Part shown: positions 42,462-63,026 of the stretch, piece by piece
Layout: every line of letters begins with the position of its first letter
How positions within the stretch are numbered: position 1 is the stretch's first letter
Source: Flavobacterium sp. HSC-32F16
GTDB lineage: Bacteria > Bacteroidota > Bacteroidia > Flavobacteriales > Flavobacteriaceae
DNA length: 64,000 nucleotides
Reading direction: 5' to 3'
Assembly (NCBI RefSeq): GCF_024171645.1
Contig: NZ_JALKAC010000007.1
Location: 186,001-250,000, forward strand
Notes under the pieces: generated by a model
What the model was told of the DNA's origin: nothing
Database searches by the model: none
The model's input: only the letters and a program-made list of their open reading frames with translations
Position numbers and translations under genes: made by a program

Positions 42462-42556
42462 TAACTTTCGACTTTACGACTTTCGACTTTACGACTTTTG
42501 ACTTTCGACTTTATGACTTTCAACTTTCGACTTTATGACTTTCCAACTTTCGACTT
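42462..42556. repeat. tandem GACTTTCGACTTTAYG-type repeat reaching into the pump gene
   Basis: Seven or so imperfect copies of ACTTTCGACTTTACG/ACTTTCGACTTTATG between adaptor and pump genes. The array runs past the stop codon of the pump gene at 42533, so that its last residues (SKSKVGKS) are encoded by repeat sequence. Confidence 0.85.
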
Positions 42557-60159: not shown

Positions 60160-60474
60160 CTAAATTTTTCCTTTTTGATGTAATCTGTGGAGAATTTCTG
60201 ATTTTAATAAACCGCTTCCTCCTCCAAAATGTTCAATTACTTCTACTTCTGGCTGTTGTTCTAAACAAAATAAAGTAAACTCTTTTTCGACATGGTCTTC
60301 GATTCCGGAACTCAATAGAACAATGTCAATTTTGTGATTCTGAAAATATTCCTGTGCTTCTTTTTCATCGTTGAAAGAAACTGCGTTCCAATCTTCATAT
60401 GCGTTTACAAGGCGAAGTAAAATGGCCAGAATTGCTTCGTTTTTTCCGAGTAATAAGAATTCAAGTGTTTTCAT
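60160..60474 (-). CDS. pseudo-receiver-like protein
   Basis: 104 aa. Layout of a CheY-like fold (MKTLEFLLLGKNEAILAILLRLV, then HKIDIVLLSSGIEDHVEKEF, ...EVEVIEHFGGGSGLLKSEILHRL), but the phosphoacceptor position that is Asp in real receivers reads SSG after IVLL, and the acidic pair is missing. So it would not be phosphorylated. It stands alone downstream of the tandem promoter-bearing repeats. Confidence 0.75.
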   Translation of the reverse strand: MKTLEFLLLGKNEAILAILLRLVNAYEDWNAVSFNDEKEAQEYFQNHKIDIVLLSSGIEDHVEKEFTLFCLEQQPEVEVIEHFGGGSGLLKSEILHRLHQKGKI

Positions 60475-60482
60475 TTTTTTTT

Positions 60483-61650
60483 AAGATTCTGAGATTCTGA
60501 GACACTAAGGTTCTAAGTTTTTTTTACTTTGAAAATTAGTTTTGACAGAACTTCTGATTTACTTTACAAATTTATTTGTTTTGTTTTTGCTTCCACTTAA
60601 TCTAGAACAAGAAAATATTTTTTTTTTAAGATTCTGAGATGCTAAGGCACTAAGATTCTGAGTTTTATTTTCTATTTGGTTTCAGTTTTTGACAGAACTT
60701 GTAATCTACTTTGCAAATTTATTTGTTTTGTTTTTGCTTCAACTTAATCTGGAATAAGAAAGGATTTTTTATTTAAGATTCTGAGATGCTAAGGCACTAA
60801 GATTCTGAGTTTTTCTTTTCTATTTGGTTTCAGTTTTTGACAGAACATATAATCTACTATGCAAATTTATTTGTTTTGTTTTTGCTTCCACTTAATCTAG
60901 AACAAGAAAACATTTTTATTTAAGATTCTGAGATGCTAAGGCACTAAGATTCTGAGTTTTATTTTCTATTTGGTTTCAGTTTTTGACAGAACATGTAATC
61001 TACTATGCAAATTTATTTGTTTTGTTTTTGCTTCAACTTAATCTAGAATAAGAAAGGATTTTTATTTAAGATTCTGAGATGCTAAGGCACTAAGATTCTG
61101 AGTTTTTCTTTTCTATTTGGTTTCAGTTTTTGACAGAACTTGTAATCTACTATGCAAATTTATTTGTTTTGTTTTTGCTTCCACTTAATCTAGAATAAGA
61201 AAGGATTTTTTATTTAAGATTCTGAGATGCTAAGGCACTAAGATTCTGAGTTTTTCTTTTCTATTTGGTTTCAGTTTTTGACAGAACATGTAATCTACTA
61301 TGCAAATTTATTTGTTTTGTTTTTGCTTCAACTTAATCTAGAATAAGAAAGGATTTTTATTTAAGATTCTGAGATGCTAAGACACTAAGATTCTGAGTTT
61401 TTCTTTTCTATTTGGTTTCAGTTTTTGACAGAACTTGTAATCTACTATGCAAATTTATTTGTTTTGTTTTTGCTTCAACTTAACCTGGAATAAGAAAGGA
61501 TTTTTATTTAAGATTCTGAGATGCTAAGGCACTAAGATTCTGAGTTTTTCTTTTCTATTTGGTTTCAGTTTTTGACAGAACGTGTAATTTGTGTGGCAAA
61601 GATATTGCCTCTGCAATGATGCAGCAGTTAATCTAGAATAAGAAAAGAAT
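60483..61650. repeat. tandem array, eight ~147-base units with promoter boxes
   Basis: AAGATTCTGAGA units begin at 60483, 60628, 60775, 60922, 61068, 61216, 61363 and 61510. Each holds CTCAGAATCTTA twice (minus strand), the GTGCCTTAG core, TTTTGACAGAAC, and GCAAATTTATTTGTTTTG. Read on the minus strand, TAAATTTG (TAnnTTTG) occurs once in each of units 1-7; in units 2, 4, 6 and 7 a TTG sits exactly 18 bases upstream, giving the full promoter consensus. Units 1, 3 and 5 carry GTGG at that spot instead. The last unit diverges after GACAGAACG but still has TATCTTTG. All read toward the pseudo-receiver gene. Confidence 0.92.
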
Positions 61651-61944
61651 ATTTATGTATAAAATAATTTAGTCCTAATAGCTATTGGGATAGCATCTTA
61701 TATAAATTTTTCAAAAAACTTTAGCTGAATGTGGGAAACCGTATAGAAATTAAAAAAACTGCCATTAGATTTGCTGCATAGAAATCAGGGAATAATGTTT
61801 ACCTTTTTATTTGTTCTCAAAAGGTTTCTGTGGTTAAAAATGTTTTTGGAGAGACGATTTTTAATTTTAAAATTGGACATATTCATTTGATCGTGGGTAA
61901 CTTGTAGAAATTGTTATGATATAAGAATGTCTAAATTTTTTTAT
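61651..61944. other. non-coding stretch between the array and the AraC gene
   Basis: No ORF above ~31 codons on either strand looks real. AT-rich, no palindrome or repeat of note up to 61945. Confidence 0.6.
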
Positions 61945-61998
61945 AGGTTTTTAGATTTGGTTATGAATTTAACTTTAATCTAAAAACCTTTTTTTTAG
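61945..61998 (+). terminator. strong plus-strand terminator with no plus-strand gene
   Basis: 13-base perfect stem AGGTTTTTAGATT (61945-61957) / AATCTAAAAACCT (61977-61989), followed by eight Ts on the plus strand. On the minus strand (after the AraC stop at 61995) the trailing sequence is A-rich, so it is built for plus-strand transcripts. Nothing coding precedes it. Confidence 0.7.
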
Positions 61999-63026
61999 CC
62001 TAAAACCAAAAGCCCAATAAGCCAGAAATAAACAACCTCCCAGTTTCTTTTAAATTTTTGAGGCGAGGAGCCGTAGAAATTCTTAAATGCGGCCGAGAAA
62101 TGAGAAATATCTTTGTACCCACATTTATATGCTACTTCACTTACTGTTGAGGCTTTGTCCTTAAATAATTCTTTAGCATATTCCATTCTTAATTTAATGA
62201 TGAAGGTTTTTACAGTTGTTCCAAAACAGGCTTTAAAACCTTTTTTTAATTTAAATTCATTTAAGGAAATCATTCTTGAAAGCTCGGTCAGGCTTGGGGC
62301 GTGGACGTAATCTTTTTCCAGAATCAATTTTGCTTCCTGAAGTTTAGAATAATCCTCGTCGTCAATTTTATCTTTTAGTTTGGGTTCTGTAATAATAGCT
62401 TCGAGCTGATGTATTAAAAGTTCTTTGATTTTGGTTTCAATAAACATCTTTTTTAAAGCTCCTTTTCGGTTACAGTTTCTAATTTCAGATATTATCCATT
62501 GTATAGCAGGAGTAAAGGGAATATATTTTGAAGTTAAATAACCGGATTTTTTTAATAGTATGTTTTTAGAGAATTTTTCATGGACTTTCCAGTCTTCATT
62601 AATGATGTTATAATAAAATTCTTTTGAGAAAATAATCGCTAAATAATTGACTTGTTCAAATGCGGGTATCGTATAAGTAGCTTTAAATTTTGTTGTATAA
62701 AAAATATTATGGGTGCTTTCCTTAATGTATTTATCGGCTTCGAGCAGTTCAATATTGGTTTGGATGTTGCCTGAGTTTACAAAATCCATTACAACACATT
62801 CTTCATTAATTTCAAAAATATCTGTCTGCGATTTAGAAAGACATAATTGAGTATCAATAAGAACCATTCCATCAGTAGATAAAATGTGACTTTTTATTTC
62901 ATCTGTTGCTTCCTTTTTTATGTCGATAATTTCTTCTGTAAGGATACTTTTTGGATCGTATTGGTCTTTAATTTCGATATTGATAATTGGTTTTTCATGG
63001 GCTGATAGTTTCGATTTGATCTTCAA
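61995..63026 (-). CDS. AraC-family regulator (PchR-like), divergent from a TonB receptor
   Basis: 343 aa. N-terminal ~220 residues form a sensing domain (IDIKKEATDEIKSHILSTDGMVLIDTQLCLSKSQ...) of the PchR-like type; C-terminal HTHs are LTELSRMISLNEFKLKKGFKACFGTTVKTFI and TVSEVAYKCGYKDISHFSAAFKNFYGSSPQKF. It is divergent from the TonB-dependent receptor gene 107 bases away, the standard arrangement for a ferric-siderophore-responsive activator and its receptor. A C-terminal hydrophobic tail (VVYFWLIGLLVLG) is unusual. Direct repeats in the gap look like its binding site. Confidence 0.92.
   Translation of the reverse strand: MKIKSKLSAHEKPIINIEIKDQYDPKSILTEEIIDIKKEATDEIKSHILSTDGMVLIDTQLCLSKSQTDIFEINEECVVMDFVNSGNIQTNIELLEADKYIKESTHNIFYTTKFKATYTIPAFEQVNYLAIIFSKEFYYNIINEDWKVHEKFSKNILLKKSGYLTSKYIPFTPAIQWIISEIRNCNRKGALKKMFIETKIKELLIHQLEAIITEPKLKDKIDDEDYSKLQEAKLILEKDYVHAPSLTELSRMISLNEFKLKKGFKACFGTTVKTFIIKLRMEYAKELFKDKASTVSEVAYKCGYKDISHFSAAFKNFYGSSPQKFKRNWEVVYFWLIGLLVLG

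Follow-up and report, generated by a model that had tools for sequence, protein, structure and literature searches.

The locus studied here is a small minus-strand gene and the repeated DNA in front of it. Both lie in the window, that is, the whole 64-kb stretch of DNA that was analysed. The gene encodes a 104-aa stand-alone protein with a predicted receiver-like structure, and an AraC-family gene on the same strand lies upstream of the repeats. TRF delimits a tandem array at 60473-61588 with a period of 147, 7.6 copies and 93% matches, and the unit alignment places the starts of eight units at 60483, 60628, 60775, 60922, 61068, 61216, 61363 and 61510, which confirms the array of eight units of about 147 bases each that a first-pass annotation of this DNA had described. 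Unit 1, the one nearest the gene, is set apart from units 2-7 by differences at 29-32 positions; any two of units 2-7 differ at 2-13 positions, and unit 8 retains only about its first half. The features to which the rest of the text refers are the following.

60160-60474, minus strand: gene for the 104-aa stand-alone pseudo-receiver protein (open reading frame, predicted structure)
60473-61588, minus strand: tandem array with a period of about 147 bp (TRF and unit alignment)
60483-60517, plus strand: 8-bp-periodic CTAAGATT-type element of unit 1, present at the same place in every other unit (periodicity, genome matches)
60567-60574, minus strand: -7 box of unit 1, TAAATTTG, N21 from the operator
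60596-60611, minus strand: operator of unit 1 (gene-proximal), CTTGTTCTAGATTAAG (pattern match and spacing)
60714-60721, minus strand: -7 box of unit 2, TAAATTTG, N21, -33 TTG present
60743-60758, minus strand: operator of unit 2, CTTATTCCAGATTAAG, 1 mismatch
60862-60869, minus strand: -7 box of unit 3, TAAATTTG, N21
60891-60906, minus strand: operator of unit 3, CTTGTTCTAGATTAAG
61008-61015, minus strand: -7 box of unit 4, TAAATTTG, N21, -33 TTG present
61037-61052, minus strand: operator of unit 4, CTTATTCTAGATTAAG
61155-61162, minus strand: -7 box of unit 5, TAAATTTG, N21
61184-61199, minus strand: operator of unit 5, CTTATTCTAGATTAAG
61303-61310, minus strand: -7 box of unit 6, TAAATTTG, N21, -33 TTG present
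61332-61347, minus strand: operator of unit 6, CTTATTCTAGATTAAG
61450-61457, minus strand: -7 box of unit 7, TAAATTTG, N21, -33 TTG present
61479-61494, minus strand: operator of unit 7, CTTATTCCAGGTTAAG, 2 mismatches
61597-61604, minus strand: -7 box of unit 8, TATCTTTG, N22 from the operator
61627-61642, minus strand: operator of unit 8 (most distal), CTTATTCTAGATTAAC, 1 mismatch
61995-63026, minus strand: AraC-family gene (Pfam HTH_18) upstream of the array, a neighbour and a candidate regulator only

All eight units carry on the minus strand a 16-bp near-palindromic operator, CTTRTTCTAGATTAAG, with 0-2 mismatches, which was first recognised, as the near-palindrome CTTRTYCTAGATTAAG, by comparing the upstream regions of orthologs of the gene. 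The distance from the operator to the -7 box is exactly 21 bp except in unit 8, where it is 22 bp, and N22 in the most distal unit is found in several relatives too. The box is TAAATTTG in units 1-7. The longer pattern TTG-N18-TAAATTTG, which adds the TTG at -33 that is an element of Bacteroidota sigma-A promoters, occurs in units 2, 4, 6 and 7; these four are its only minus-strand matches in the 64-kb window, and the plus strand has 0. The earlier count of a minus-strand box in seven of the eight units and of four TTG-N18 promoters is therefore right as far as it went, the box of unit 8 (TATCTTTG) having been overlooked, and a TAnnTTTG box of the Bacteroidota sigma-A type is present in 8 of 8 units. 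The split of units 1, 3 and 5, from which the -33 TTG is absent, against units 2, 4, 6 and 7 was also drawn correctly. The difference itself is real, but the description of the units without the TTG as defective probably does not hold, since what all the units keep is an activator-type operator. The growth of the array by dimer duplication, which had been read from this alternation, gained no support: a permutation comparison of lag-1 and lag-2 distances is insignificant both for units 2-7 (P 0.15) and for units 1-7 (P 0.33). All the units are oriented toward the 104-aa gene, in support of the earlier view of promoter-like units aimed at a small pseudo-receiver gene. A search for promoters of the E. 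coli type gave 3 against 7.9 expected, and such promoters were rejected as an explanation.

The AlphaFold model of the 104-aa protein (pLDDT 87.8, pTM 0.81) is a (beta-alpha)4 structure with four pairs only, and its best PDB match by Foldseek is Spo0F (chain 3q15_D, TM 0.75, 17% identity, E 9e-4). According to this model the protein has a receiver fold; the Pfam Response_reg family scores 12.7 bits, below the cut-off of 30.2. Ser55, at the end of strand 3, is invariant in 31 aligned sequences, and in our reading of the alignment it is equivalent to the position of the phospho-acceptor Asp, which is absent. Because a Ser takes the place of that Asp, the protein is termed a pseudo-receiver. One genome (G053) has the pseudo-receiver fused in frame to pirin in a protein of 342 aa (L015, 754-1782, minus strand), and this fusion suggests that pirin and pseudo-receiver proteins act together.

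About positions 8-63 of each unit are made up of an interspersed 8-bp-periodic element that recurs in the genome, with at least about 40 matches outside the array (E below 1; 40 of 110 candidates scored). The octamer cores at 20 inspected places (L324-L343) are regularly spaced, 74 of 82 gaps under 20 bp being exactly 8 bp; the element has about five such periods and a T run at its end, and sometimes forms inverted pairs (L325, L326, L334). Two other observations concern noncoding DNA of the window. A conserved noncoding block (ACGATCAAATGAATATG and its flanks) lies at 61878-61894 on the minus strand. Of the 77 loci compared below, 28 have this block, at a distance of 252-369 bp upstream of their most distal operator, and a consensus RNA fold sought for it was not convincing. 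At 42464-42556 there is a short, imperfect tandem repeat whose units resemble ACTTTCGACTTTACG.

Operator-box spacing and promoter type

The spacing between operator and box was examined with a search in which the box was not required. Palindromes of the form CTTRNYCTAGATTAAG with at most one mismatch were collected up to 2 kb upstream of 77 orthologs, and 149 of the 150 have TAnnTTTG at 21 bp (100 palindromes) or 22 bp (49 palindromes), the sole exception without a box being the proximal unit of L258. Palindromes on the opposite strand gave 60 matches and 0 with a box at 21 or 22 bp. Further boxes in this test were found at 34 bp (four) and at 35 bp (one). The operator alone, with two mismatches allowed, is no commoner in the window's genome (30 matches) than its reversed control (32 matches), and so only sites with 0-1 mismatch, or sites with the box, carry weight.

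The position of the box relative to the start of transcription was taken from F. psychrophilum, another species than the host, for which published start-site maps place TAnnTTTG at -12 to -5 (PMC9723704); on that basis the centre of the palindrome would fall at -41.5 or -42.5. The array has the same TAnnTTTG -7 box as the Bacteroidota sigma-A promoters described there (PMC9723704), together with a TTG at N18 in part of the units, but differs from them in that the conserved partner of the box is here the operator; units 1, 3 and 5 lack the -33 TTG. Across the 106 N21 units of the different species the letters of the -33 TTG, taken as single columns, are kept at 0.93 (T), 0.80 (T) and 0.71 (G). 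Although they are common, the TTG is not the common denominator of the units, and it is probably secondary because every unit keeps an activator-type operator at -41.5 or -42.5. A CTTAA-N6-TTAAG palindrome (5-N6-5) centred at -41.5 has what we take to be the layout and the position of a class II CRP-type activator site.

Related sites at other genes and a candidate Crp-family regulator

In 20 genomes from this part of the genus, the composite CTAGRTTAA-N22/23-TANNTTTG was found 128 times and its reversed control 5 times; of the 128 matches, 53 are at the pseudo-receiver gene and 75 are elsewhere. The first-pass annotation had considered that its promoter reading would suffer if the same array stood beside unrelated positions in many genomes; with the strict composite, no A-type cluster away from the gene was found in the 20 genomes. 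In the window's genome, with gene names taken from Pfam, the composite stands singly before pirin, yceI, a GNAT-like gene followed by an esterase gene (L035), a glyoxalase/dioxygenase-family gene (L036) and an alpha/beta hydrolase gene (L046). At L037, where OsmC follows a second pirin gene, the site is weaker, having two mismatches. In smaller genomes the pseudo-receiver gene either belongs to a pirin-yceI-pseudo-receiver operon, upstream of which stands a Crp-family gene, or directly adjoins that Crp gene. Their sister operator (CTTGnnCTAGTTCAAT, N21, nAnnTTTG) gave 21 composite matches and 0 controls in 28 genomes. G030 has three operator-promoter units before pirin, each of about 90 bp and two of them clearly copies of each other, and G013 and G117 have two units before yceI, which indicates that such promoters have been copied at other genes too, and in different species. 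Listed by locus, the tandem sister operators at pirin and yceI in species other than the host are L182, L183 and L194.

From the gene content we infer an electrophile or quinone response as the role of this putative regulon. MhqR of Bacillus subtilis is a MarR-family repressor of a quinone/electrophile regulon, and the genes described here resemble that regulon in the presence of ring-cleaving-dioxygenase-like and carboxylesterase genes. They differ from it in that the candidate regulator is a Crp-family activator, not a MarR-family repressor, and in the addition of pirin and YceI.

The candidate regulator is a Crp-family protein of 191 aa encoded in the window's genome (G000) at G000:C2:1083287-1083850. 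It scores 33.0 bits with PF00027 (cut-off 27.5) and matches no HTH family at E 1e-5, and its C-terminus aligns with other Crp-like proteins. In four more distant species (G117, G012, G005, G011) the ortholog is followed directly by an A-type operator and pirin, and in G406 the order is Crp, pirin, operator, yceI. All 17 of 17 genomes examined for it have an ortholog with 92-100% identity at a distance of 5-8 kb from an A site of the pirin/yceI type, where the pirin/yceI identity comes from an ORF check in G000, G015 and G008 and elsewhere from the spacer of the site. The A-type composite is present in 14 of 16 genomes with the Crp ortholog against 1 of 8 without it (Fisher p 7e-4, without kinship correction, and counting G019 and G381, in each of which the match probably arose by chance). 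The exceptions are G009 and G017, which have the ortholog without an A-type match, and G381, which has a match without the ortholog; the left half-site is missing from the match in G019. In those 24 genomes the composite matched 23 times and the reversed control 6 times, which means that an individual match in them may be due to chance. Since the Crp gene immediately precedes the pirin site in four species, and since its presence across genomes largely follows that of the operator, the 191-aa protein is the likely regulator of the window's array, an assignment made by association.

Two other candidates were considered. The Crp clade that is linked to the gene in the small genomes was rejected, as a tree places in it no member of the 24 Crp-like hits of the window's genome. 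The AraC-family neighbour of the array is less likely because the operator layout is CRP-like, and the AraC-family gene beside yceI (L067) encodes a different protein. For the linked Crp of the small genomes, the B-type comparison gave 12 of 12 against 2 of 16, without kinship correction and on the assumption, checked in G000, G006, G008 and G015 only, that the linked Crp is absent from the 16; G008 has a deep member of the clade, and G040 has the linked Crp with no operator visible to the pattern. Behind a third Crp paralog stand CTTGAAGTAGTTCAAG-N21-GACCTTTG and a gene that we read as carboxymuconolactone-decarboxylase-like, an arrangement located at L055 2041, L058 2083 and L061 1479. The possession of its own operator and box by this paralog supports this operator style for the family, and the pair suggests a parallel small regulon of the same architecture.

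Taken together, the anatomy and the activator-type layout point to an array that is a copy-number-variable set of Crp-type activator-dependent promoters, a reading to which we give a rough probability of 0.74. In the mechanism that we propose, the array would be a minisatellite of complete regulated promoters, in which every unit combines an operator for an activator of the Crp/Fnr family, centred at -41.5 or, for unit 8, at -42.5, with a -7 box of the sigma-A type and a spacer that here includes the octamer element. The Crp-family protein (G000:C2:1083287-1083850) would bind the operators and activate the promoters in class II fashion, so that on receipt of a signal the activator on each operator would give rise to several in-line starts and to nested 5' leaders running into the pseudo-receiver gene, which would share its regulon with pirin, YceI and electrophile-detoxification-type enzymes. 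Copy number would change by unequal recombination and would set the maximal or the early induced output of the single target gene.

Copy number across Flavobacterium and its possible effect

Orthologs of the pseudo-receiver gene are found in 96 of 398 genomes of the genus (E 1e-20), and the upstream DNA was read for the best 76 other orthologs, down to 61% identity. By a first criterion all of the 76 except G338 have at least one operator with box, and 33 of the 76 have at least two. A second and largely overlapping set was made up of 76 named GTDB r220 loci plus the window and was read with a slightly looser operator. It contains 157 units in total: 44 loci have one unit, 8 have two, 13 have three, 6 have four, 4 have five (Flavobacterium saccharophilum DSM 1811, L313, being one of these), one (Flavobacterium sp. 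CF108) has six and one (the window) has eight, which makes 33 of the 77 loci multi-unit (2-8 units). Copy number thus varies among relatives; the first-pass annotation had proposed such a comparison among strains. The contig ends 153-332 bp upstream in five of the 76 named loci (L251, L256, L303 and L316 with one unit, L267 with two), and for this reason some unit counts are lower bounds. Of the 13 genomes in the first set that are recorded as a single contig, 7 contain arrays, and an assembly artefact was rejected on these grounds.

The units are mostly spaced at 99-148 bp. A tree of the 312-bp gene, drawn without the five cut loci, has many weak forks and requires a minimum of 8 changes between one and several units, which indicates that arrays were repeatedly gained or lost. 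Within arrays of at least three units the mean identity between units ranges from 0.49 to 0.86, and the columns that vary within arrays number 37 of 304 in the operator, 0 of 114 in the box and 167 of 442 in the spacer, counts that are biased because the sites were selected with the pattern. The nearest relative of a unit lies in the same array for 31 of 72 non-proximal units and for 2 of 25 proximal units. As read from the sequences, the relationships of the units are a mixture of shared ancestry and local homogenisation, and copy number has risen and fallen among species (1 to 8), probably by unequal recombination.

We regard the chances that unit number scales the induced output of the target gene as evenly balanced. 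The chief rival to this dosage step is a neutral minisatellite, in which a promoter was duplicated by recombination, with help from the octamers, and the extra units are passengers; this rival is compatible with the anatomy described above. A single unit is present at 44 of the 77 loci (4 of them cut), near relatives differ in unit number (4 in L259, 5 in L260), and the proximal leader contains an octamer chain in 22 of 32 multi-unit loci but in only 9 of 40 with one unit (p 1e-4, uncorrected for phylogeny and with the 5 cut loci left out), all of which a neutral process could produce. Such a process fits less well with the arrays without an octamer chain (L266, L274, L309, L310), with the small number of apparent unit losses (irregular spacings of 296 in L250, 261 in L259 and 230 in L308), and with the tandem sister operators at other genes. 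The operator and the box are moreover kept even in internally diverged arrays, with mean identity down to about 0.5-0.7, and this persistence argues against neutrality, yet the argument is weakened because recent duplication also preserves both. On balance we consider the neutral explanation a serious one that is somewhat less than even in its chances. Returning to the set of activator-dependent promoters, a broader extension of it would be an evolvable rheostat, in which a Crp-family electrophile-stress activator acts on the one pseudo-receiver gene through 1-8 promoter copies and lineages tune the output of the regulon or its feedback by gaining and losing copies, perhaps with titration of the activator in addition; this extension we put forward tentatively, as a possibility that we are inclined to doubt.

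Known systems and the remaining alternatives

The array is like class II CRP/FNR promoters in its 5-N6-5 palindrome at -41.5 and its linked candidate regulator of the Crp family, and differs from those promoters in having CTTAA-N6-TTAAG, a Bacteroidota -7 box and up to eight tandem promoters. Tandem promoters precede archaeal and bacterial rRNA operons, where there are likewise several in-line promoters before one transcription unit; rRNA operons are highly expressed, whereas here an array of the activator type stands before a small regulatory-looking gene. The number of repeats in a promoter can alter the number of transcription-factor sites, as at nadA of Neisseria meningitidis (PMC3899988), and the likeness to the array is that an upstream repeat number varies and changes the number of regulator sites. 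In the examples considered from that review the repeated unit is either very short, at a few bases, or, in one human promoter, 61 bp long and furnished with binding sites (PMC3899988), whereas the unit of the array is a whole operator and -7 box, mostly 99-148 bp long, with a candidate start in each copy.

A literature search of open-licence PMC found neither an array of this kind nor the regulon described. Repeated binding sites are known, and so, independently, are tandem promoters; what is repeated here is a predicted complete module of activator site plus promoter. Because the module stands before the same gene in 1 to 8 copies and is repeated in 33 of 77 Flavobacterium loci, it offers a natural copy-number series that is suited to questions of dosage, of interference between in-line promoters, of activator titration and of the speed of expression evolution. 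It also points to a candidate Crp-family regulon (pirin, YceI, detoxification-type enzymes and the pseudo-receiver) with a directly testable operator.

The array accounts for 8 of the 13 operator-plus-box sites found in the window's genome (14 with the weaker site at L037), which would be in keeping with a decoy, in which the operators mainly sequester the Crp-family activator and thereby determine the threshold at which the whole regulon responds, with little distal transcription. We think this unlikely, as nearly every unit has a box at the right distance, which a decoy does not need, and a few extra sites matter only if the protein is scarce. We see still less reason to expect that the palindrome binds a repressor and that the repeats tighten repression. 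A fixed site abutting the -33 region could block RNA polymerase, but the promoter is repeated along with each operator, which would multiply the leakiness, the centre at -41.5 and the 5-N6-5 palindrome match class II CRP geometry, and the linked candidate is Crp-like (PF00027). Highly improbable, finally, is the earlier suggestion of a short functional RNA from each unit: although each unit has its own predicted promoter and leader columns directly past the box (positions 52 and 54, counted from the operator start) are kept at 0.96 and 0.95 in the 106 N21 units, a structured RNA is unsupported, as two unit transcripts show the folding expected of shuffled sequences (z 0.27 and 0.49), the array has no terminator-like site and 0 Rfam matches, and the spacer columns are mostly variable across species. 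The gene-proximal leader (60483-60562, minus strand) folds better than its shuffles (z -3.36), which the two internal units do not.
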